The position numbers were made by a program, and so were the translations under genes. Under the pieces are notes generated by a model. The model was not told where the DNA came from. It worked only from the letters and a program-made list of their open reading frames with translations, and ran no database searches. From the NCBI GenBank assembly GCA_944325245.1, contig CALUZM010000017.1:1-37840 (forward strand): 37,840 nt of DNA. Direction: 5' to 3'. This document shows positions 11,695-23,213 of the stretch, piece after piece; position 1 is the first letter of the stretch; each line of letters opens with the position of its first letter. The stretch comes from an uncultured Massilimicrobiota sp. Its GTDB lineage: Bacteria; Bacillota_I; Bacilli_A; Erysipelotrichales; Coprobacillaceae.

Positions 11695-11744
11695 GCGTGT
11701 AAAAAGAAGAAAATAAGTATATAATAAGAACAAGGAGGTTTTTT

Positions 11745-13490
11745 ATGGAAAAATGTTGGGATTTAAATCAGTTATATTTATCTTTTGATGATCCACAATT
11801 CTCAAAGGATATAAAGACTTTAGAAAAAAGACTAGAAGATATGAAAAGCATTCCTTGTCAGGATGTTCACGAAGACAATCTAAAGTCATATTTAGAACAA
11901 TTCAATCAATTTCAGGATCTGGTAGAAAAAATATATGCTTTTATATCATTAACGATGAGTAGTGATACAACAAATCAGGATGCTTTAAAATATTCATCTG
12001 TTATTGAAACTCTTTTAGCAAGTTTTGCTGATACACAAGCCAGAATTGATCGTTGGATTGGACAGTTTGATTTGAGTCAGATTCAAGATTCCTATATTCA
12101 GGAACATATGTATGTTTTACAAGAAATTCAGGAAAACAATCATCATCTCTTAAGTGATGAAGGAGAGAAAGTCTTGGCACAAATGAAAACAACGGGATCA
12201 AGTGCCTGGCTGAAATATAAAGATCAGTTGATCTCATCTATGAAAGTGTCAATGGATGGAAAAGATTACCCATTAACAGAAGTGTTGAATATGGCTTATT
12301 CAAAGGATAAAGATGTCAGAAAAAAAGCTTACGAAGCAGAACTGGCAGCCTACAGTCAAGTTGAACAGGGTGTGGCCAGTGCTTTGAATGCTATTAAAGG
12401 TGAAGCCATAACAGTAACACAATTAAGAGGTTATGATTCTGTTTTACAGCGTACTTTAATAGATTCAAGAATGTCACAAAAAACATTGGATGTTTTGCTG
12501 GAAACAATGAAAAAAGCATTACCAATTTTTGAAAGATATTATCGTTTAAAAGCGGAACACTTAGGTTACTTTCAGGGATTACCATGGTATGAACTGTATG
12601 CTCCAGTGGTGGAAAGTCATGAATCTTATCCTTTTGAAAAAGGCAGTCAGTTTGTGATAGAGCAGTTTTATAGTTTTTCCAAACATTTAGGTGATTATGC
12701 TAAAAAAGCAGTTGAACAACATTGGATTGATATTTATCCAAGAGTAGGCAAAGTTGGTGGTGCATTCTGCCATAATTTACATTGTATTGGGGAAAGTCGC
12801 TTTTTATTGAATTATGGCAATGAATTTGGTGATACCGTGACTTTGGGGCATGAACTCGGTCATGGTTTTCATGGAGAATGCTTGAATCAACAAACAGCTT
12901 TAAATGCAGATTATCCAATGCCTATTGCTGAAACAGCTTCAACATTTTGTGAAACTATTATTAAAAATGCAGCTTTAAAATCAGCTGATTCAACACAAAA
13001 GCTCTTTATTTTAGAAAATGAACTTTGTGATTGCGCACAAGTTATTGTTGATATTTATTCTCGTTTTCTATTTGAAAGTCGTCTGATTGAAAGACGACAA
13101 AAAGGACCTTTAAGCGTTGAAGAAATCAAAGATTTGATGCTTGAAGCTCAAAAGGAAGCTTATGGACAAGGATTGGATCATCGTTATTTACATCCTTATA
13201 TGTGGACATGGAAGCCACATTATTATGAGGCAGATTATGCTTTCTATAATTTCCCTTATGCATTTGGTCTTTTATTGGCGAAAGGATTATATGCTTTATA
13301 TCAACAACAAGGACCATCTTTTAGTGAGATTTATGAAAAGTTTTTATCATTAACAGGACAGATGAGTTTAGAAGATGTTGGAAAAAGCGTTGGTATTGAT
13401 TTACAAGATGCTCATTTCTGGCAAAATTCAATAGACATGATAAAAGATGATATTGATTTGTTTGAAGAGTTATTAAAACAAAATTCATAA
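11745..13490 (+). CDS. pepF: Oligoendopeptidase F (M3B metallopeptidase)
   Basis: A 581-residue cytoplasmic zinc endopeptidase that degrades short peptides. The zinc motif HELGH is at residues 369-373 and the third ligand Glu lies in PIAETAST near 395. The N-terminal helical domain and the C-terminal YHLHPYMW-like region (RYLHPYMWTWKPHYY) with YNFPYAFG are typical of the family and the length is normal. AAGGAGG precedes the ATG and a TATAAT at 11720-11725 may be its -10, so it may be transcribed separately from the XRE gene. It is followed by a strong terminator. Confidence 0.95.
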   Translation: MEKCWDLNQLYLSFDDPQFSKDIKTLEKRLEDMKSIPCQDVHEDNLKSYLEQFNQFQDLVEKIYAFISLTMSSDTTNQDALKYSSVIETLLASFADTQARIDRWIGQFDLSQIQDSYIQEHMYVLQEIQENNHHLLSDEGEKVLAQMKTTGSSAWLKYKDQLISSMKVSMDGKDYPLTEVLNMAYSKDKDVRKKAYEAELAAYSQVEQGVASALNAIKGEAITVTQLRGYDSVLQRTLIDSRMSQKTLDVLLETMKKALPIFERYYRLKAEHLGYFQGLPWYELYAPVVESHESYPFEKGSQFVIEQFYSFSKHLGDYAKKAVEQHWIDIYPRVGKVGGAFCHNLHCIGESRFLLNYGNEFGDTVTLGHELGHGFHGECLNQQTALNADYPMPIAETASTFCETIIKNAALKSADSTQKLFILENELCDCAQVIVDIYSRFLFESRLIERRQKGPLSVEEIKDLMLEAQKEAYGQGLDHRYLHPYMWTWKPHYYEADYAFYNFPYAFGLLLAKGLYALYQQQGPSFSEIYEKFLSLTGQMSLEDVGKSVGIDLQDAHFWQNSIDMIKDDIDLFEELLKQNS

Positions 13491-13496
13491 TGATGG

Positions 13497-13533
13497 AGAG
13501 TTCCAAACATTCATATGTTTTGGGACTTTTTTT
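13497..13533 (+). terminator. Terminator of pepF
   Basis: AGTTCCAAACAT (13499-13510) pairs with ATGTTTTGGGACT with one bulge and is followed by a run of seven T. Confidence 0.85.
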
Positions 13534-13557
13534 AATGATAAGGGTCAGATAAAACTA

Positions 13558-13586
13558 TTGACTTCACTATAGTTTGGATGTATATT
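13558..13586 (+). promoter_or_regulatory. Promoter of marR-MATE operon
   Basis: TTGACT (13558-13563), a 17-bp spacer and TATATT (13581-13586) are close to the sigma-A consensus. Confidence 0.8.
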
Positions 13587-13615
13587 GTTTATGTGTAAAT
13601 GATATACATGTAAAC
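13587..13615 (+). promoter_or_regulatory. Candidate MarR operator
   Basis: GTTTATGTGTA (13587-13597) and TACATGTAAAC (13605-13615) form an inverted repeat matching at 9 of 11 positions around 7 bp. It begins directly after the -10 and covers the transcription start, a typical place for repression by the MarR protein encoded just downstream. Confidence 0.6.
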
Positions 13616-13629
13616 TAAAAGGAGGGTGT

Positions 13630-14064
13630 ATGAAAACGAACATAGAAACAATGTTAGAATATTTTATTCAAATTAGAAAATGTTATGCAAATATTTTGAA
13701 TAAAAGACTTAAAGATATAAAATTATCACCTAATGAAATTAATATTCTTATTTTACTTTCTAATAATCCTACAATTACCACAAGCAGCCAGTTGAATGTT
13801 TTGCTGGGAGTTTCTAAAGGATTGATTAGCAGAAGTATAGATAGTCTCATGAAAAAAGGATGGATTCGATGTGAAAATGATGTCTCTGATAGGCGTGTTT
13901 TGCATATTTATTTAACATCAGAATCATCTGAAGTGATTAAGGTTTTAAAGTCAGAGATTCAAAAGATTAATCATGATGTTCTAGCAGATATTAGTGAAGA
14001 AGAGATGAAGGCTATGGAAATGACGATGTCAAAAATTATTCAACGTTTTAAAGAAAATCAATAG
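13630..14064 (+). CDS. MarR-family transcriptional regulator
   Basis: A 144-residue winged-helix protein. SPNEINILILLSNNP and SSQLNVLLGVSKGLISRSID form the helix-turn-helix, DVSDRRVLHIYLT is the wing with the conserved D-x-R-R, and dimerisation helices lie at both ends. GGAGGG precedes the ATG. It is 16 bp upstream of a MATE exporter and has a palindrome over its own start site, so the usual reading is autorepression with relief by a compound exported by the pump. The ligand is unknown. Confidence 0.92.
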   Translation: MKTNIETMLEYFIQIRKCYANILNKRLKDIKLSPNEINILILLSNNPTITTSSQLNVLLGVSKGLISRSIDSLMKKGWIRCENDVSDRRVLHIYLTSESSEVIKVLKSEIQKINHDVLADISEEEMKAMEMTMSKIIQRFKENQ

Positions 14065-14080
14065 AAAGGGTGGTTTGATT

Positions 14081-15481
14081 ATGAAATTGAAAATGTCACA
14101 GGAAGTCGATTTGGGAAAAGAACCTGTCGGACATTTACTGTTTATTTTGGCAGTACCAGCCATTACATCACAGGTTGTCAATGCATTATATAATATGGTT
14201 GATCGTATGTATATTGGACATATTCCAGAAATTGGTTCAACAGCTTTAACAGGCGTAGGTGTATGTTTTCCTCTTATTATGATTATTTCAGCTTTTGCTT
14301 ACTTGTTTGGTATGGGTGGAGCACCACGTGCCAGTATTTTCATGGGTAAAAAAGATAATGATACTGCAGAAAAAATCTTAGGAAACTGTACCACATCATT
14401 AATAATCATTGCAGTGTTATTAACAGTTTTGGTTTTATTATTTCAAGAACCTTTATTATACCTTTTTGGAGCGAGCACAAATACAATTGGTTATGCTATG
14501 GATTATATGACAATTTATGCCATAGGGACAATCTTTGTTCAATTGACACTAGGGTTGAATGCTTTTATATCTGCACAAGGGTTTTCTAAAATCAGTATGT
14601 TAACCGTTGTCATTGGTGCTGTCACAAACATTATTTTAGATCCTATTTTCATTTTTGGATTCAATATGGGTGTTCAAGGTGCAGCTATCGCAACAGTTTT
14701 ATCACAGGCCTTAAGTGCCATCTGGGCATTCTGGTTCCTATCAGGAAAAAACACAACTTTGAAATTAAAAAGAAAAAACTTGAAAATTGATTTTCATATT
14801 TTACTTCCATGTATTGCTTTAGGAGTCGCTCCTTTTGCTATGCAGGCTACTGAAAGTGTTTTGGTATTATGCTTTAACTCATCATTATTAAAATATGGTG
14901 GAGATTTGGCTGTTGGGGCTATGACAATTTTATCAAGTGTTATGCAATTTGCGATGCTGCCATTACAAGGTTTAACACAAGGTGGACAACCTATTATTAG
15001 TTATAACTATGGTGCTAATCAGGGAGAACGTGTTCAAAAGGCATTTAAACTTCAAACAATTTCATGTTTTTCATATTCATCTTTATTATGGTTATTGATT
15101 ATGCTAGTACCAGGTTTATTTGTTGCTATTTTTACAAGTGATCCACAATTAACTGAAATCACAATCTGGGCATTAAGAATTTATATGGCAGGTGTTTTAT
15201 TGATGGGTATTCAAATCTCATGTCAACAGACATTTATTGCTTTTGGAAATTCAAAGAAGAGTGCTTTTTTGGCAGTCTTTAGAAAGATTCTTGTTTTGAT
15301 TCCATTGATTTATATTTTACCAATGTTGATATCTGATCAGGTTTTTGCAGTCTTTTTGGCAGAGCCTATTGCGGATACCATTGCTGTTTTGACAACTTCA
15401 ACAATGTTCTACTTTGAAATGAAAAATAAAATGAAAGAAATGCAATTAAATCATAAGGCAGAAAAGTCATATGATGATTGA
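14081..15481 (+). CDS. MATE-family efflux transporter
   Basis: A 466-residue membrane protein with about 12 transmembrane helices. Early signatures are GHLLFILAVPAITSQVVNAL and NMVDRMYIGHI; later QGFSKISMLTVVIGAVTNII and GLTQGGQPIISYNYGA are typical of the DinF/NorM-type MATE exporters that use Na+ or H+ gradients to extrude drugs. ATG 14081 follows AAAGGGTGG; a TTG at 14075 is in frame but less likely. It forms an operon with marR. The stop is TGA. A long perfect hairpin follows 22 bp later. Confidence 0.93.
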   Translation: MKLKMSQEVDLGKEPVGHLLFILAVPAITSQVVNALYNMVDRMYIGHIPEIGSTALTGVGVCFPLIMIISAFAYLFGMGGAPRASIFMGKKDNDTAEKILGNCTTSLIIIAVLLTVLVLLFQEPLLYLFGASTNTIGYAMDYMTIYAIGTIFVQLTLGLNAFISAQGFSKISMLTVVIGAVTNIILDPIFIFGFNMGVQGAAIATVLSQALSAIWAFWFLSGKNTTLKLKRKNLKIDFHILLPCIALGVAPFAMQATESVLVLCFNSSLLKYGGDLAVGAMTILSSVMQFAMLPLQGLTQGGQPIISYNYGANQGERVQKAFKLQTISCFSYSSLLWLLIMLVPGLFVAIFTSDPQLTEITIWALRIYMAGVLLMGIQISCQQTFIAFGNSKKSAFLAVFRKILVLIPLIYILPMLISDQVFAVFLAEPIADTIAVLTTSTMFYFEMKNKMKEMQLNHKAEKSYDD

Positions 15482-15503
15482 ACAGTTTAAAGATACTTTT
15501 GTT

Positions 15504-15552
15504 GATGAAGTGATGAGTGGCAGGAAGAAATCCTGCCACTCATCACTTCATC
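15504..15552. repeat. Perfect 22-bp inverted repeat with 5-nt loop
   Basis: The left arm (15504-15525) starts GATGAAGTGATGAG and ends GGCAGGA; the right arm (15531-15552) is its exact reverse complement, and the loop is AGAAA. The stem is richer in GC than its surroundings. There is no T run on either side, so it does not fit an intrinsic terminator. It may stop the MATE transcript in another way, protect its 3' end, or be a mobile repeat. Confidence 0.85.
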
Positions 15553-15985
15553 CGCATTTAAGGTCTCATGTGAACATTGCTCAATGGCTAAAATAACAGG
15601 GTTATTCAGGGAATGTAGAAACAATGGTATCTTTATAATATTGTTGGATTATTATGATCTGTTCTTTTCAATATGATATTTATGACTGCAGGATGCTATT
15701 CACATAGTTAGAAAAAAGTGGATTATGAACTTTAGGGCAATTTGAGATAAAATGGTGATTAATCAAGATAAAGAGAATTATATAGCTCAGTAGTTATTTG
15801 CCTCTGTGTAGATGTGAAATGATTTGGATGATAAAATGAGTTCAATTAAAGAATATCTAGAATAAGAATTGCTTTGATAAGTGATTCTTTTATTATGCTT
15901 TATAAGCATAATTGAATATGAAATATAAGTATTTGAAGTCATATATGGAGTGATATACAATAAAATTGAAAGTTGTGGTGACATT
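15553..15985. other. Gene-free stretch
   Basis: No supported gene. It contains stop-rich frames on both strands and an 8-bp palindrome TTATGCTT-TAT-AAGCATAA near 15893-15911. The phrase TATAGCTCAGTAGTT near 15780-15795 recalls a tRNA D-arm, but no cloverleaf forms around it. The promoter of the next gene presumably lies in the last 100 bp. Confidence 0.5.
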
Positions 15986-17677
15986 ATGCAAATAGAAAAA
16001 TTTCAATGGGCTGAGACATCAACAATCGTAGAGATGATTTGCCATGTCTGGAAATTAGATCAAATGTTTAAGGGCTTAAAAAATGGAATGATTTTTTCAC
16101 AAGAATATTTTTATGATGTTCTATTGCATTCAACAGATTTATATATCACGGTTGAAAATCAAAATATTGTTGGTTTTTTAGCACTATCTTTATCTAAAAA
16201 AGATAAAATTTTGATTCCCGAAGAATATCAGAATCTTCTCTATCATCAACATGATGACTTTCATTCTATTTCATCTTATCGTCAAATGATGCAAGCTTAT
16301 CATCAAAGTTGTGATCAGTTATTAAAACAGACGCATCAGACATATGATGGAGAAATTGTTTTGTTTATGGTTGATGAAAAATATCAGCATCAGGGTGCAG
16401 GAACAAGGCTTTATGAGTATGCAGAATCTTTATTTCAAAAAGAAGCATGTTCTTGTTATATATTGTATACGGACACAAGTTGTGCTTATGAATTCTATGA
16501 TCATCATCACATGAAGCAACTTGGGCACTATCAACGAGATAAAGATTTTACAATTTACTTATATGCAAAGGAGTTGAAATCAATGGAGTATAGACAATTA
16601 CCACATGGCAATGAAAAAATCAGTGTGATTGGTTTAGGAACCAGTTCACTTGGCGAATCAAGTGATGAAGAAATCGTTGCAACGATTCAAGAAGCAATAG
16701 CACAAGGGGTGAATTATATCGATTTGGCTAGTGGGCATGCGAAAACATTTCAGGCAGTTGGTCAAGCTATCAAAAATCAAAGAGAAAAAGTGTATTTACA
16801 GATTCATTTTGGAGCTAATTATGAAACAGGTGAATATGGCTGGACAACGAATTTAGAAAAGATTAAACAATCGATACAATGGCAATTAAAAATGTTGCAG
16901 ACAGATTATATTGATTTTGGTTTTATTCATTGTCTTGATGAAGAAGCAGATTTAAAAGCTGTTGAAGAAGCAGGGGTTATAGATTATATTCAAGAACTCA
17001 AAAAACAGGGTATTGTTAAACATATCGGATTATCATCACATACACCAGAAATTGTTCATAAAGTTTTAGATATGCATATTTTAGATATGGTGATGTTCAG
17101 TATTAATCCTGCATATGATTATAAACATGGAGAATATGCAATTGGACAGACTGATGAAAGAATGGCTTTATATCAGCGTTGTGAAAAAGAAGGGGTTGGA
17201 ATTTCTGTCATGAAAGCTTTTAGTGCTGGGCAATTGCTAGATCAAGAAAAATCTCCATTTCCTCAAGCTCTCACACGTGTTCAATGTATTCAATATGCAT
17301 TAGATAAACCCGCTGTTGTGACAGTTTTACCGGGAGTGAGAAATCGTGACGATTTAAAAGATATTTTACAATATGTACAAGCCACTGATGAAGAAAAAAA
17401 TTATACAATTATTTCAACATTTGAGGCAGTAGAGCATCAAGGAAAATGTGTTTATTGTAAACATTGTCATCCTTGCCCAATGGGATTGGATATTGCATTG
17501 ATGAATAAATATTATGACTTGTGTTTACTAGGTGATGAATTAGCTAAAGATCATTATCATCATTTGAATAAAAAAGCAAGTGACTGTGTTCAATGTGGAC
17601 ATTGTAATCATCGTTGTCCATTTCATGTTGACCAGATGCAAAGAATGAAGGAAATAGCAGATTATTTTCATGAATAA
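15986..17677 (+). CDS. GNAT acetyltransferase fused to [4Fe-4S] aldo/keto reductase-like protein
   Basis: A 563-residue ORF. Residues 1-199 are a GNAT domain with the acetyl-CoA loop YQHQGAGTRLYEYAE near 130-145. Residues 200-563 are an aldo/keto reductase barrel starting MEYRQLPHGNEKISVIGLG, then two cluster motifs: CVYCKHCHPCP near 488-498 (C-x2-C-x2-C-x2-CP) and CVQCGHCNHRCP near 534-545 (C-x2-C-x2-C-x3-CP), enough for two [4Fe-4S] clusters. The usual catalytic Tyr and Lys are not at their places (IDLASGHAK, VYLQIHFGA). AAGGAG lies 9 nt before the internal ATG 16583, so the reductase can probably also be made alone. The join sits exactly where a GNAT protein would normally end, suggesting a lost stop codon. 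Start 15986 (ATG) is preferred; GTG 15950 is possible. Confidence 0.8.
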   Translation: MQIEKFQWAETSTIVEMICHVWKLDQMFKGLKNGMIFSQEYFYDVLLHSTDLYITVENQNIVGFLALSLSKKDKILIPEEYQNLLYHQHDDFHSISSYRQMMQAYHQSCDQLLKQTHQTYDGEIVLFMVDEKYQHQGAGTRLYEYAESLFQKEACSCYILYTDTSCAYEFYDHHHMKQLGHYQRDKDFTIYLYAKELKSMEYRQLPHGNEKISVIGLGTSSLGESSDEEIVATIQEAIAQGVNYIDLASGHAKTFQAVGQAIKNQREKVYLQIHFGANYETGEYGWTTNLEKIKQSIQWQLKMLQTDYIDFGFIHCLDEEADLKAVEEAGVIDYIQELKKQGIVKHIGLSSHTPEIVHKVLDMHILDMVMFSINPAYDYKHGEYAIGQTDERMALYQRCEKEGVGISVMKAFSAGQLLDQEKSPFPQALTRVQCIQYALDKPAVVTVLPGVRNRDDLKDILQYVQATDEEKNYTIISTFEAVEHQGKCVYCKHCHPCPMGLDIALMNKYYDLCLLGDELAKDHYHHLNKKASDCVQCGHCNHRCPFHVDQMQRMKEIADYFHE

Positions 17678-17802
17678 CAATATAATTTCACTTTTTATAA
17701 GAATTTTTGATGATATAATAAAAGTAGAAAGAGTTTATCAATGAAAGGAATAATTATAATGGTTTGGATATAGGTAGTGATAGAAGATAAGGAGGAACTA
17801 TT

Positions 17803-18204
17803 ATGAATCATAAAATAATCTATCTGCTTATAACAAAGTGCCTTTTGGGTATTCTTTGTATTCTAGCCGCTGTTGTAATTCTTATTCCAAATTATGTTCC
17901 TACTCAAGAAACATCTGAGATTTTTGCACCAATCATTATATTTGGTACTGCTGGAGCAATAGGACTTATTTTGTATTCGGATCGTTTAAAAAAGCGTTTT
18001 GATTGGAATGACGATGAATTACAGAAGATGAGAAATGTTGATGCTTCCTTGTGCAATAAGATAATATTACTTGGATTTTTGACCTTATTGCTTCCTGATA
18101 ATGGAGTGGTTAAAATTGCTCATATACAGGGAATTGCATTGATTATTATAGGATTAATATTTATCATACAATTTATAGGGTATTGTAGCCAATTAAAAAA
18201 ATAA
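17803..18204 (+). CDS. Small multi-pass membrane protein, unknown function
   Basis: A 133-residue protein not assigned to a family. Four hydrophobic helices lie near residues 6-28, 40-58, 86-98 and 106-127; the middle loop DRLKKRFDWNDDELQKMRNV is charged and cytoplasmic by the positive-inside rule. AAGGAGGAAC precedes the ATG. A TATAAT at 17714-17719 may be its -10 but no good -35 is seen. It stands alone between the fusion gene and a strong terminator. Possibly related to DUF2178-like membrane proteins, not certain. Confidence 0.8.
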   Translation: MNHKIIYLLITKCLLGILCILAAVVILIPNYVPTQETSEIFAPIIIFGTAGAIGLILYSDRLKKRFDWNDDELQKMRNVDASLCNKIILLGFLTLLLPDNGVVKIAHIQGIALIIIGLIFIIQFIGYCSQLKK

Positions 18205-18248
18205 TGTTGTTTTTAAAGATGTGTCAATAATAGAATGTGCGTAATTTA

Positions 18249-18287
18249 TACAATAAAAGATGGGTTTCCATCTTTTATTGTATTTTT
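18249..18287. terminator. Intrinsic terminator
   Basis: TACAATAAAAGATGG (18249-18263) and CCATCTTTTATTGTA (18268-18282) form a perfect 15-bp stem with loop GTTT, followed by TTTTT. It closes the small membrane protein gene. Confidence 0.88.
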
Positions 18288-18362
18288 AGAATAAATACGC
18301 ATATGATGTTTATATTCAAATGATATACACACTTAAAATAATGGTTTTACAGTTATTGAAAA

Positions 18363-18401
18363 TTTGTATACTTTAAAGTAGTATACTTATAAGTATACAA
18401 A
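18363..18401 (+). promoter_or_regulatory. Triple GTATACTT operator-like site
   Basis: GTATACTT occurs at 18366-18373 and 18381-18388, and inverted (AAGTATAC) at 18391-18398. The last two form an 18-bp perfect palindrome GTATACTTATAAGTATAC, while the first and third form TTTGTATACTT...AAGTATACAAA. This nested arrangement suggests cooperative binding of a dimeric regulator. It lies about 130 bp before the YjdF-like pair. The rest of the 18288-18530 gap shows nothing else clear. Confidence 0.55.
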
Positions 18402-18530
18402 TGAAAAAATATGATTTATGATCCATGTTTATAATAAATATATAGAGGTGGCATTTATCCACTTTTCTGTATGCATAAAAAAACCTTAGCTGTCTATATT
18501 TTAATAAGTATAGAAATGGAGTCTTGAATA

Positions 18531-19148
18531 ATGAAAAATTATAAATATTTATATGGTGTGTGTATCATTATATATGTTGTGACTTTGATGTATGCTGTTA
18601 TAAAAGGATCAAGATTACAGATGTGCATCATAGCTGGTATATTACCTTGTTTACTTCCTGTTTTAAAGTATAAATTTCATTGTAAGATAACCTATGAGAT
18701 TAAAATCATATATCTTGTTTTTATCTATTTTTCTTCGCTGATAGGAAGTTGTTTAGAAGGTTATGAATTGGCTTATTATGATAAAATTGTTCATTTCTTT
18801 AGTGGTATCATTATAACGATGTTAGCTTGTCTGATTTATAGCTTTATCAAAAAAAACATCAAGATTCAACAACCTTCAGATCAAAAGATTTACTATATTT
18901 TTATCATGACATTTAATATGTCTATCGCATTATTATGGGAGTTTTATGAATATGCTATGCTGATTTTCTTTCAAAATGATTGTATTCATCATTATACTAC
19001 AGGTATTCATGATTCAATGATTGATATGATATGTGCTTGTCTAGGAAGTTTAATTATATTGTATCAAGTTGTACAGTATCATCGAAAAAATAAAAAATAT
19101 TATTCGATAAAAGTTATGCATCAATTCTATAATCAAAATATTTTATGA
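18531..19148 (+). CDS. YjdF-like (DUF2238) membrane protein
   Basis: A 205-residue protein with about six hydrophobic segments. It has the signatures of the DUF2238/YjdF membrane family: YYDKIVHFFSGI, ALLWEFYEYAMLIFF and GIHDSMIDMICACLGSL, in which the acidic and His residues fall in or next to helices. No biochemical role is established for the family. GGAG precedes the ATG by 9 nt. It is followed 42 bp later by a paralogue of the same length. The stop is TGA. Confidence 0.82.
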   Translation: MKNYKYLYGVCIIIYVVTLMYAVIKGSRLQMCIIAGILPCLLPVLKYKFHCKITYEIKIIYLVFIYFSSLIGSCLEGYELAYYDKIVHFFSGIIITMLACLIYSFIKKNIKIQQPSDQKIYYIFIMTFNMSIALLWEFYEYAMLIFFQNDCIHHYTTGIHDSMIDMICACLGSLIILYQVVQYHRKNKKYYSIKVMHQFYNQNIL

Positions 19149-19190
19149 TACATCAAATAGTGGTACAATAAAGAAAAGAAGGTGGCATAG

Positions 19191-19799
19191 ATGAAAAAAC
19201 TCAAAGGAACATGGATAACATGTGTGATTATTTATATAATGACACTTATATATGCTTTTTATGTGAATTGGCAAGGAAAGTATTTTGGGATGACTTTTGT
19301 GGCATGTATTACACCGTTTATTGTACCTACTTTTATGAAACTTATAAAGGTGAGGGTTCCATTAGAATTCCATATTATCAATATTGTTTTTGTTTATTTT
19401 GCAAGTTTATGGGGAAGTTGCTTGGGTGGGTATCAGCTTCCTTATTATGATAAGTTTACACATTTTGCTAGTGGTGTTGTGATATGTGAAATGATCTTTC
19501 TGCTTTATAAACATTATTTAAGACATGATCATAGAAAATCATTGATGTTTATTTTTTTGAATGCGGTGAATGCAAGTGTTGCATTGCTTTGGGAGTTTTA
19601 TGAATATGCTTTACTTGTTTTCTTTCAATATGATGCAATTAAACATTTTTCAACAGGTGTTCATGATACGATCACGGATATGCTAGTGGCAGTGATCGGA
19701 GGTCTTATTTTATCTATATATCTGATACATTATGATCAAAGTGAAAAAAATCATTTCTTTGTTTCACTGGAAAGAAAAATTCATAAGATGAATCATTAA
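19191..19799 (+). CDS. YjdF-like (DUF2238) membrane protein, tandem paralogue
   Basis: A 202-residue membrane protein clearly homologous to the gene just upstream: YYDKFTHFASGV, ALLWEFYEYALLVFFQYDAI and GVHDTITDMLVAVIGGL align one to one. The conserved polar residues (Asp-Lys-His, Glu-x-x-Glu, His-Asp-Asp) are kept in both copies while the membrane helices have drifted, which suggests that both are functional, perhaps as a heterodimer. AAGGTGG precedes the ATG and a hairpin terminator follows. Confidence 0.82.
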   Translation: MKKLKGTWITCVIIYIMTLIYAFYVNWQGKYFGMTFVACITPFIVPTFMKLIKVRVPLEFHIINIVFVYFASLWGSCLGGYQLPYYDKFTHFASGVVICEMIFLLYKHYLRHDHRKSLMFIFLNAVNASVALLWEFYEYALLVFFQYDAIKHFSTGVHDTITDMLVAVIGGLILSIYLIHYDQSEKNHFFVSLERKIHKMNH

Positions 19800-19805
19800 C
19801 CATAG

Positions 19806-19839
19806 GAAGTTCTTTTAGAATTATAAGAGCTTCTTTTCT
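19806..19839 (+). terminator. Terminator after YjdF-like pair
   Basis: GAAGTTCTT (19806-19814) pairs with AAGAGCTTC (19825-19833) with one wobble, followed by TTTTCT. Confidence 0.7.
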
Positions 19840-19916
19840 ATTGTTCGTATATATAGAAGAATATGTTCGTAATTATGAATATCATAAAAAGTATTTTATT
19901 TTTTACTAAAAATACA

Positions 19917-19946
19917 TTAACAAACGTCGGGGGAGGGGGTTATAAT
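19917..19946 (+). promoter_or_regulatory. Promoter of the PTS/KDG operon, with G-rich spacer
   Basis: TTAACA (19917-19922), an 18-bp spacer and TATAAT (19941-19946). The spacer contains GGGGGAGGGGG, striking in such AT-rich DNA. G-tracts in the spacer usually lower basal strength, so activation or a topology-dependent response is possible. Confidence 0.75.
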
Positions 19947-19962
19947 AAAGTTGTACAAAATA

Positions 19963-19977
19963 GCGAATATAATTCGC
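19963..19977 (+). promoter_or_regulatory. Candidate IclR operator
   Basis: GCGAAT-ATA-ATTCGC is a perfect 15-bp palindrome starting 16 bp after the -10, just downstream of the expected transcription start. A repressor bound here would block the operon; the IclR protein encoded as second gene is the obvious candidate. Confidence 0.6.
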
Positions 19978-20005
19978 AAATACGGATAAGAGAGGAGAGA
20001 GAAAT

Positions 20006-21331
20006 ATGGGGTTATCCGAAGCTGCAACTGAGAAGTTGCTTGTGATTGCTGATAAGATTAGTAATCAAAAACACATGAGCTCAATTAAGAATGCTTTTAC
20101 AACTTTAATGCCTGTCATTATTACAGGGGCATTCTGTACGCTTGTGACAAATGTAATTTGTTCTACAACAACTGATGGTATTTCTCTTGCTAAAGTGCCA
20201 GGTATGGCATGGCTGGAAGTACTTTCACCAATCTTTAGTGCTGCAAACTATGCAACATTAAATTTCTTTACAGTAGGTGCTGTTATTTTGATTGGTCTTG
20301 AATTAGGGAAAAAGAATGGTATCAACACTTATGCACCTGCTATTGTCGCATTATGTTCATTCGTCGCTTGTTGTCCAACATTTGTTAATTTTACTTTAGA
20401 AGATGGAAGCATTATACAAGTTGCCGATGTATTAGGAAAAGATTATACAGCTGCTAAGGGATTGTTCTTAGGTATGGTTATTGCCATGTTATCAGTAGAA
20501 TTATTCTCTTGGATTGTTAAATCTGGTAAATTAAAAATTAATATGCCTGATACAGTACCACCAAATGTTTCAAATTCATTTAACGTATTATTCCCAGTTA
20601 TGTTGACAATCATCGTATGTTCAGCAGTTAACTTTGGAATTAATCAATTAACTGGTATGACTTTATATGACATTATTTATACAATGTTACAAAAACCATT
20701 GGAAGCAGTTATGCAAGGTCTACCTGGATTATTAATCTTGATGTTAGTTGCACAATTATTCTGGGTTATTGGTATTCATGGTAATCAGATTATTAAACCA
20801 GTACGTGAACCATTATTAAATGCAGCTATTATAGCTAATACTGATATGGTTAACTCTGGAATCACTGATCGTAGTCAATTAAATATTATTAATATGTCTT
20901 ATTGGGATACTTATATGTCTATGGGTGGTTCTGGTGTAACTATTGGTTTAATTGTAGCTATTTTCCTTTTCTGTAAACGTGAAGATTATAAATCAGTTGC
21001 AAAATTGTCATTAGCTCCTGGTATTTTCAATATCAATGAAACAATGACATTTGGTTTACCAATTATGTTAAACCCAATTTTAGCAATTCCATTTATTATT
21101 ACACCATTAGTTACAGGAAGCATTGCTTATTTCTTGACTGTGATTGGATTTGCTGATGTATTGGTATATGCTATTCCTTGGACAACACCACCAATTTTAA
21201 GTGCTTGGTTAGCATCTGGTGGAAGTATTACATGTATTATTACACAGTTAATTTGTATTGCTGTTTCTATTCTTATTTATATTCCATTTGTTATTGCAGC
21301 AAACAAACAAGCAAAAGCTCAAGAACAATAA
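20006..21331 (+). CDS. PTS EIIC, lactose/cellobiose (Lac) family
   Basis: A 441-residue permease with about ten transmembrane helices that carries a sugar across the membrane for phosphorylation. Signatures are the N-terminal ISNQKHMSSIKNAFTTLMPV, the loop FWVIGIHGNQIIKPV near residue 256 and FNINETMTFGLPIMLNPILA near 345, where cellobiose/chitobiose EIICs have the substrate-binding NINEP segment (Pro is Thr here). No EIIA or EIIB is fused; the only EIIB-like domain in the window is at 29819 and no EIIA is present, so partners must be encoded elsewhere or shared. It is first in a nine-gene operon of KDG metabolism. AGAGGAGAG precedes the ATG. Confidence 0.92.
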   Translation: MGLSEAATEKLLVIADKISNQKHMSSIKNAFTTLMPVIITGAFCTLVTNVICSTTTDGISLAKVPGMAWLEVLSPIFSAANYATLNFFTVGAVILIGLELGKKNGINTYAPAIVALCSFVACCPTFVNFTLEDGSIIQVADVLGKDYTAAKGLFLGMVIAMLSVELFSWIVKSGKLKINMPDTVPPNVSNSFNVLFPVMLTIIVCSAVNFGINQLTGMTLYDIIYTMLQKPLEAVMQGLPGLLILMLVAQLFWVIGIHGNQIIKPVREPLLNAAIIANTDMVNSGITDRSQLNIINMSYWDTYMSMGGSGVTIGLIVAIFLFCKREDYKSVAKLSLAPGIFNINETMTFGLPIMLNPILAIPFIITPLVTGSIAYFLTVIGFADVLVYAIPWTTPPILSAWLASGGSITCIITQLICIAVSILIYIPFVIAANKQAKAQEQ

Positions 21332-21345
21332 ATGTTATAAAATAC

Positions 21346-21370
21346 AACCACCCTTCAGGGTGGTTTGTAT
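21346..21370 (+). terminator. Weak hairpin between EIIC and iclR genes
   Basis: AACCACCC (21346-21353) pairs with GGGTGGTT (21358-21365) around TTCA; the following bases are T-rich but interrupted (TGTATT). It may lower downstream expression rather than end the transcript. Confidence 0.55.
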
Positions 21371-21413
21371 TCCATGTAAGCCTATGTTATGATTGTTATG
21401 AAGGGGTGATTTC

Positions 21414-22175
21414 ATGAAACTCAATAGAACATTATTAAGAGCGATAGATATATTAGAATTATTATCTAAAAATAAAGATGGTTATACTTTAGCTCAAATT
21501 GCCAATATTTTGGATTCTCCAAAATCAAGTATTTTTGATATTCTTAAAACTTTATTGTATAAAAACATGATTTTAGAAGATACCCAGACAGGCATAACAA
21601 AATATAAGATAGGCCTACAATCCTTTTTGATAGGAAGTAGTTTTATCAATGATATGGATATTGTCAGTGTTGCTAAAAATGATTTAATAGATTTAGCCAA
21701 TAAGATGCATGCCACAACATTTATGGCTGTTTTAGATGATTTTAAAGTCACTTATATTTATAAATATGAGTCTGTACATAGTGTCATTACAACAGCAAAT
21801 ATAGGAACACGAAATCCTTTGCATAGTACGGGTTTAGGAAAAGTTTTGTTAGCTTTTTCCGGTGAAGAAATGTTAAAAGATGCTTTGAAAACAATGACTT
21901 ATGAACCGATTACACCTTATACAATTACTTCACCAGAAAAGTTCTTTGATGAATTAAAACAGGTCAGAATTAATGGATATGCAATTGATGATCGTGAAAA
22001 TTCATTATATCAATATTGTGCTGCAGCACCTTTAAGAAATCATGATGGTGAAGTGATTGCAGCTATCAGTTGTGTAGGGTTGTATGAAGAATTTACGGAT
22101 TTAAGTGGATTAGGAAATATAGTGAAAGAAACAGCACGTACAATATCAAAAAGATTAGGATATAAGGAGGAGTAA
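21414..22175 (+). CDS. IclR-family transcriptional regulator
   Basis: A 253-residue regulator. Residues 1-65 form the winged helix (RAIDILELLSKNKDGYTLAQ, then LDSPKSSIFDILKTLLYKNM) and residues from about 80 on form the GAF-like IclR effector domain, including NPLHSTGLGKVLLAF and YAIDDRENSLYQYCAAAPLR. The relatives KdgR and related IclR proteins answer to KDG or other sugar-acid intermediates, which fits its place between the EIIC and mannonate dehydratase genes. It probably acts on the GCGAAT-ATA-ATTCGC palindrome before the operon (inference). Confidence 0.92.
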   Translation: MKLNRTLLRAIDILELLSKNKDGYTLAQIANILDSPKSSIFDILKTLLYKNMILEDTQTGITKYKIGLQSFLIGSSFINDMDIVSVAKNDLIDLANKMHATTFMAVLDDFKVTYIYKYESVHSVITTANIGTRNPLHSTGLGKVLLAFSGEEMLKDALKTMTYEPITPYTITSPEKFFDELKQVRINGYAIDDRENSLYQYCAAAPLRNHDGEVIAAISCVGLYEEFTDLSGLGNIVKETARTISKRLGYKEE

Positions 22176-22178
22176 GAC

Positions 22179-23213
22179 ATGAAAATGACATTTCGCTGGT
22201 ATGGCAATGATGATCCTGTGACTTTAGATAAAATTAAACAAATTCCTAATGTAACAGGGGTTGTCAGTGCCATCTATGATATACCAGTTGGTGAAGTCTG
22301 GCCAGTGGAAAGAATCCAGCAGCTTGTTAGTGCAGTTCATCAAAAAGGATTAGAACTGGAAGTTATTGAAAGTGTGCCAGTGCATGAAGATATTAAATTA
22401 AAGCGTGGCGATTATCAAAGATATATTGATAATTATAAACAAACAATAAGAAACTTATCACAATGTGGAATCAAATGTATTTGTTATAATTTTATGCCTG
22501 TGTTTGACTGGACACGTTCATCTATTGACCATGAATTAGAAGATGGTTCAACAGCACTTGTTTATTATAAAAATGAAATTGATCAGTTAGACCCAACAAA
22601 ATTAACTTTGCCAGGATGGGATGCTTCGTATTCTCCAGATGAAGTCAGTGAACTCATTCAAGCTTATCAGCAATTAGGAGAAGAAGGATTGTGGAAAAAC
22701 TTAGAATATTTTATTCAAGAAATTATGCCAGTGGCTGTAGAATGTGATGTCAATATGGCTATTCATCCAGATGATCCACCTTGGTCTATATTTGGGATTC
22801 CTCGTATTATTACATGTGAAAAGAATTTGGATCGTTTCTTAGCACTCTATGATGATACACATCATGGGTTAACATTGTGTAGTGGATCACTAGGTTGTAC
22901 AAAGAAGAATGATATTCCAGCTTTAATTAGAAAATATGGAAAAATGAAAAGAATTCATTTTGCTCATGTGAGAAATGTAAAGATTTTAGAAGATGGTTCA
23001 TTTGAAGAAAGTGCCCACTATGCAAAATGTGGTTCATTGGATATGGTTGATATCATGAAAGCCTATCTGGAAACAGATTTTCAAGGTTATATTAGACCTG
23101 ATCATGGACGTATGATTTGGGGAGAAAAGGGGAAACCAGGATATGGATTATATGATCGTGCATTAGGAGCAATGTATCTTGGTGGTATTATTGATGGATT
23201 GAAAGGAAAATAA
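22179..23213 (+). CDS. uxuA: Mannonate dehydratase
   Basis: It converts D-mannonate to 2-keto-3-deoxy-D-gluconate (EC 4.2.1.8), needing Fe2+ or Mn2+. The 344-residue TIM barrel starts MKMTFRWYGNDDPVTLDKIK and shows family motifs IPVGEVW, IHPDDPPWSIFG, CSGSLG, FAHVRN and RPDHGRMIWGE, with the metal-binding Cys and His residues present. AAGGAGGAG lies across the end of iclR, so the two are coupled. UxaC and UxuB, which normally make mannonate from glucuronate, are not in the window, so mannonate must come from another locus or directly from the imported compound. Confidence 0.95.
   Translation: MKMTFRWYGNDDPVTLDKIKQIPNVTGVVSAIYDIPVGEVWPVERIQQLVSAVHQKGLELEVIESVPVHEDIKLKRGDYQRYIDNYKQTIRNLSQCGIKCICYNFMPVFDWTRSSIDHELEDGSTALVYYKNEIDQLDPTKLTLPGWDASYSPDEVSELIQAYQQLGEEGLWKNLEYFIQEIMPVAVECDVNMAIHPDDPPWSIFGIPRIITCEKNLDRFLALYDDTHHGLTLCSGSLGCTKKNDIPALIRKYGKMKRIHFAHVRNVKILEDGSFEESAHYAKCGSLDMVDIMKAYLETDFQGYIRPDHGRMIWGEKGKPGYGLYDRALGAMYLGGIIDGLKGK

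Follow-up and report, generated by a model that had tools for sequence, protein, structure and literature searches.

Introduction

In an uncultured Massilimicrobiota sp., an acetyltransferase gene and an aldo/keto reductase-like gene lie in a single open reading frame, within which the ribosome-binding site and start codon of the reductase are still present. The locus raises two questions: how the two genes came to be joined, and whether one or two proteins are made from them. We analysed it within a stretch of 37,840 nt (the window; contig CALUZM010000017.1, positions 1 to 37,840). FusionDB is said to cover fusions and fissions between adjacent prokaryotic genes. Adjacent genes that are fused elsewhere, with indels among the causes, are described in the available part of the GeneTack frame-transition survey (PMC3711429). 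Our explanation, put forward with considerable confidence, is that two neighbouring genes under common regulation have genuinely become fused, in a limited lineage.

Results

One frame, two complete domains

The frame and its two halves comprise the following features:
15986..16579, + strand: GNAT acetyltransferase domain, residues 1-198 (Pfam, invariant G137/G139, GNAT-like model)
16583..17677, + strand: aldo/keto-reductase-fold domain with C-terminal Fe-S motifs, residues 200-563, with its own ATG at 16583 (Pfam, model, 1ynp match)
17447..17617, + strand: eight Fe-S cysteines, C488, C491, C494 and C497, and C534, C537, C540 and C544 (invariant in relatives)

The frame runs without a stop from the ATG at 15986 to the stop codon at 17675-17677 and encodes 563 aa. 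Both halves are complete: the GNAT half occupies residues 1 to ≈197 and is followed, after a linker of two residues, by a reductase of 364 aa with an aldo/keto-reductase fold and two Fe-S cysteine motifs. The first-pass annotation had described a GNAT protein fused to an Fe-S aldo/keto reductase, and the stop-free frame (15986-17677) and its domains bear this out.

The GNAT half matches PF00583 at residues 112-164 with 28.9 bits (cut-off 20.7). The GNAT acetyl-CoA motif has the form Q/R-x-x-G-x-G/A, and QHQGAG is found at residues 134-139, with G137 and G139 invariant across 19 alignment rows. By profile and motif this half is a member of the GNAT superfamily, with acetyl transfer as its predicted activity. 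An AlphaFold model of the whole fusion, confident in the GNAT-like part, placed the last GNAT strand at residues 188-196, followed by a low-confidence joint at 198-212, and in an alignment with 17 free GNAT rows the end of the GNAT half coincided with the ends of the free homologues. The join had been proposed to lie where a GNAT protein would end, in agreement with both the free GNAT ends and the last predicted strand. Two alignments (A2 and A5), in which GNAT rows were placed on the reductase region, were left out.

Since the whole-fusion model was of low quality over the reductase half (15 rows, pTM 0.44), the reductase was modeled by itself, giving a mean pLDDT of 91.9. It matches PF00248 (Aldo_ket_red) at residues 215-423 with 104.8 bits (cut-off 24). 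AKR11C1 (1ynp) was the best match both by fold (Z 28.5, rmsd 2.8, 263 aligned) and by sequence (E 1.7e-20), but the present family differs from it in having a C-terminal Fe-S region and a histidine in place of the catalytic lysine. The catalytic tetrad of aldo/keto reductases consists of Asp, Tyr, Lys and His. Read from the alignment to 1ynp, the tetrad is incomplete: Asp246 and His315 are kept in 77/77 relatives, the Lys position is a histidine (His274) in all 77, and the Tyr position is D in 36, H in 31, E in six, Y in three and S in one. The reductase half belongs to the aldo/keto reductase superfamily by sequence and fold, but is not a proven canonical carbonyl reductase. Asp246, His315 and the altered Lys and Tyr positions could form a metal site instead of the usual proton relay. 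The cysteines form the motifs CX2CX2CX2CP and CX2CX2CX3CP, and all eight are present in 77/77 relatives; Pfam Fer4 models hit the C-terminus with scores under their cut-offs. In a search of the open-access literature, neither a GNAT fusion with this reductase family nor the family's altered tetrad came up.

Fused and separate genes among relatives

The window species (G000) was compared with Massilimicrobiota sp. An134 (G002, locus L058), M. timonensis An13 (G003, L059), an uncultured Massilimicrobiota MAG (G004, L064), a Thomasclavelia MAG (G041, L063) and another Massilimicrobiota (G001); G002, G003 and G004 were tied to L058, L059 and L064 by sequence match at the fusion locus. The G004 assembly contains two rpoB sequences that are 85.6% identical (L180 and L185) and is likely a mixed bin.

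A GNAT orthologue is found at this position in six of the 43 family genomes (G000-G004 and G041), always adjoining the reductase. The raw tally was 11/43, but the matches beyond these six are other genes (≤39% identity, mostly to part of the query). The frame is fused in two of the six, G000 and G002, which are also the only fused cases among the five Massilimicrobiota genomes (one genome per species), and both copies carry the internal start site; a wide distribution of fusions lacking that site, which would have spoken against the first-pass annotation, was not what we found. In the other four, the GNAT frame differs from that of the reductase. G003 and G004 have a TAA or TAG starting 5 nt upstream of the reductase ATG, and in G041 the GNAT TAA shares one base with that ATG, so that a stop between the domains, suggested earlier as a check, is present in both sister species and in Thomasclavelia. 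In G001, the GNAT frame ends 11 nt inside the reductase gene. The G001 GNAT is also broken, with its middle part missing; because this single-contig assembly breaks gyrB too, part of the damage may be an assembly error.

A wider set came from 80 tblastn loci (L058-L137), of which 77 were used, with the reductase start located by pattern (L107, L123 and L126 were dropped). Homologues of this GNAT occur in four of the 77 (L058, L059, L063 and L064), and an in-frame GNAT precedes the reductase only in L058. Full-length tblastn matches had made L059, L063 and L064 candidate fusions, but their genes are separate and in other frames. L080 has 151 open codons ahead of the reductase, the translation of which is of low complexity with no clear domain by eye.

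The junction and the internal start

Two features mark the junction:
16568..16573, + strand: internal Shine-Dalgarno sequence AAGGAG, read as the codons Lys-Glu in the fusion (sequence, cross-species comparison, start-site count, 16S pairing)
16574..16582, + strand: junction spacer TTGAAATCA (Leu-Lys-Ser) of 9 nt; in M. timonensis An13 the spacer has 8 nt with a TAA (cross-species comparison)

The ATG at 16583 encodes residue 200 and is exactly where the free reductase relatives (≈364 aa, beginning MEYR) start, confirming the earlier observation that AAGGAG and this ATG are properly placed for the reductase alone. We counted such sites in 337,840 bases of the organism's own genome (15 stretches of 20 kb plus the window). 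AAGGAG stands 4-11 nt before 34 of 164 ORF-first ATGs, but before only four of 1891 in-frame internal ATGs, ATG 16583 included. The internal site is start-like, and rare among internal ATGs, yet not unique. By computation, it pairs with the tail of the 16S rRNA at -9.4 kcal/mol, more strongly than the GNAT start does (-5.8 kcal/mol). Among 229 internal ATGs in the ORFs of the window, 6.6% are as open as ATG 16583 or more so.

From one mRNA, ribosomes starting at ATG 15986 would make the 563-aa acetyltransferase-reductase, while the intact AAGGAG and ATG 16583 would let some ribosomes start a free 364-aa reductase with the altered (Lys to His) active site. That the old start works in this way is a reading that we advance tentatively, somewhat below an even chance; two products from one locus, stated generally, are plausible at close to even. 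Alternatively, only the fusion protein is made, and the internal Shine-Dalgarno sequence and ATG are unused, inherited remnants, for which the chance falls just short of even. Against such remnants stands the site itself, which is strong, correctly spaced (AAGGAG-9-ATG) and intact in both fused species, with weak predicted structure around the start in G000 (-4.0 kcal/mol), though G002 is less open (-6.7). Elongating ribosomes may, on the other hand, hide the internal start.

The retention of the site speaks for unused remnants. In 12 gene pairs of G000 and G002, synonymous retention (AAG 8/41, GAG 6/19) had suggested selection for the internal Shine-Dalgarno sequence. In a larger set (93 of 120 gene pairs, chosen for a 4-fold-site difference of 0.2-0.6), however, AAG was retained in 172/365 and GAG in 53/166 cases, a joint chance of ≈0.15, and AAGGAG at Lys-Glu was retained in six of eight cases. 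Selection is therefore not claimed, and, since the retention is within chance, conservation does not prove that the internal start is used. Nor did the junction stand out as conserved in sliding synonymous divergence.

Both halves are under purifying selection. In the fused pair (G000-G002), dN/dS is 0.255 for the GNAT and 0.086 for the reductase, and the constraint is like that in the split pair (G003-G004; 0.284 and 0.122), a similarity that also speaks for the internal signals being remnants. Since GNAT constraint is unchanged after fusion, the fusion may be neutral.

The promoter and the transcription unit

Upstream of the fused gene, two features were recognized:
15895..15909, + strand: palindrome ATGCTTTATAAGCAT, a candidate LysR-type operator (recurrence upstream of relatives)
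15927..15961, + strand: third half site AAGTATT (15927-15933), overlapping a -35-like TTGAAG, with a -10-like TACAAT at 15956-15961 (promoter scan, fixed spacing)

The TTGAAG-17-TACAAT pair was found by a scan that overall finds no more sites than chance. Recurrence was assessed in 79 upstream regions (the 77 loci plus G000 and G001). The palindrome was found with up to three mismatches in 17 of these, against 0.5% of shuffled sequences. The full arrangement (palindrome, 17 or 18 nt, AAGYATT half site, 22 nt, TAYAAT-like box) was found in 14/79 regions and in 0/3950 shuffles, by a pattern that was drawn up once the first matches had been seen and that tolerated variants at several positions; the 22-nt distance from half site to -10 box is constant in all 14. 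Upstream of genes of this reductase family, Erysipelotrichaceae share the arrangement with gut bacteria of the clostridial kind.

We take this arrangement of palindrome, half site and -10 box to resemble a LysR-type promoter, and the putative promoter before the GNAT looks like one. Of the 77 loci, 11 have a LysR gene in the flanks retrieved; the closest LysR of Massilimicrobiota is encoded in another part of the genome, away from the fusion locus. The upstream GTG at 15950 is unlikely to be a start, because it lies just before the -10 box. No known RNA family reached the gathering score in 15400-17900, and a scan found no intrinsic terminator.

In all six GNAT-reductase pairs, the arrangement is 83-100 nt upstream of the GNAT start; eight loci lacking a GNAT have it 87-148 nt upstream of the reductase start. 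Since the promoter precedes the GNAT, or the reductase alone where there is no GNAT, the GNAT lies between promoter and reductase. The position of the promoter suggests that the two genes formed one transcription unit before they were fused.

Origin of the fusion

In split relatives, the reductase ribosome-binding site lies inside the end of the GNAT gene. The spacer following AAGGAG is TTATAACT in G003 and TTTATTT in G001; that of G004, TTATAGTT, is preceded by AAGGGG rather than AAGGAG. The two fused species have spacers of equal length, differing at one synonymous base (TTGAAATCA in G000, TTGAAATCC in G002), and this length is 9 nt, compared with 8 nt in G003. Because the GNAT and reductase frames differ in the split relatives, an indel was required for fusion. 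By direct reading of the sequence, one base inserted just before the TAA of a G003-type spacer removes the stop and joins the frames, although later substitutions are then required to reach the present letters, and the exact base event has no unique reading from a 9-nt spacer. In the lineage of G000 and An134, a one-base insertion of this kind would have abolished the GNAT stop and created the single frame. The first-pass annotation had attributed the fusion to loss of a stop codon, which the frame difference rules out as the sole cause; its interpretation stands insofar as genes that are separate in relatives have been fused with the internal signal kept.

In a tree of the GNAT, G000 and G002 form one group (support 98), G003 and G004 another (100). 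With separate genes in the outgroup and in other lineages, the fusion is most simply a derived state. The difference between G000 and G002 at 4-fold sites is 0.46 in the fused gene, and the median over 120 orthologue pairs from sampled stretches is 0.44. Since this divergence is typical of the genome, the open frame has lasted: it would be about as old as the split between G000 and G002 and constrained since, assuming no later transfer of the GNAT part.

The reductase end has a different history. DNA identity between G000 and G003 is 0.61-0.76 over the GNAT, climbs through the reductase, and reaches 0.91-1.00 from ≈17300 to 19700, compared with ≈82% at 11701-15455. In a tree of the 3' part of the reductase, G000 groups with G003 and G004 (99) rather than with G002 as for the GNAT; the 5' part is undecided (support 55). 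By these comparisons, the fused gene of the window is a recombination mosaic with a breakpoint at ≈17100-17300, inside the reductase gene, and its reductase end was probably acquired from the M. timonensis lineage or donated to it. Identity between G002 and G003 is 96-100% over 13600-15500 (MarR and MATE genes), though they differ strongly in the next kilobase, and their gyrB genes are 98.9% identical; such near-identity indicates that exchange between these species is common. Elsewhere in the window, the 3.3 kb of 19722-23007 are 95.7% identical to G004, far more so than the neighbouring regions, and probably mark a third tract of exchange. At 18531-19799, two related genes for DUF2238 membrane proteins stand in tandem.

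We also considered whether the fusion could be ancestral in the genus, with G003 and G004 re-split through an imported GNAT allele. The G003 and G004 GNATs are only 57% and 53% identical to that of G000, whereas the reductases share ≈90% identity, and this region recombines often. However, the genes are separate in G001 and in the Thomasclavelia outgroup as well, and all pairs compared show faster evolution of the GNAT than of the reductase, making an ancestral fusion improbable. An artefact of assembly or sequencing, with the genes really separate, is very improbable: single-base indels are common errors, and the G001 assembly has broken frames at this locus and in gyrB, but An134, which is 87% identical and was separately assembled, has the same open junction and spacer length, one synonymous base apart.

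Discussion

The fusion in Massilimicrobiota is recent but of an ordinary kind, and the event is a known one. It resembles the prokaryotic adjacent-gene fusions described in the available part of the GeneTack survey, in which genes whose stop and start codons lie close together in one genome are fused in another, with indels as a cause, but differs from them in that the ribosome-binding site and start of the reductase survive within the fused frame (PMC3711429). The pairing of a GNAT with an Fe-S reductase was not found in the survey material available (PMC3711429). For Cas11b, a shorter product from an internal in-frame start is reported as shown, in the available part of that study (PMC11899642). 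The start at 16583 likewise lies within a longer ORF in the same frame, but its product is predicted, and it would be the original start of a gene that used to stand alone, unlike that of Cas11b as described there (PMC11899642). In blaGES-1/aacA4, integron gene cassettes were fused via partial loss of the attC recombination site (PMC4670013). Neighbouring genes are joined and transcribed together there as here, but no integron attC site was seen at the Massilimicrobiota fusion (PMC4670013).

The pairing of the genes suggests that the likeliest role of the locus is in small-molecule metabolism, with both activities serving one regulated pathway. If both products are made, the fusion would add an activity while the cell keeps the free enzyme. 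Most fusions of adjacent genes come to light long after they arose, whereas here sister species still have the separate genes. Since the spacer shows the type of mutation needed and the old start is intact, the step from two proteins to one, or to both, is testable in close relatives. The locus also draws attention to a family of Fe-S proteins in gut Firmicutes that resemble aldo/keto reductases, in which the active site is changed and the promoter conserved.
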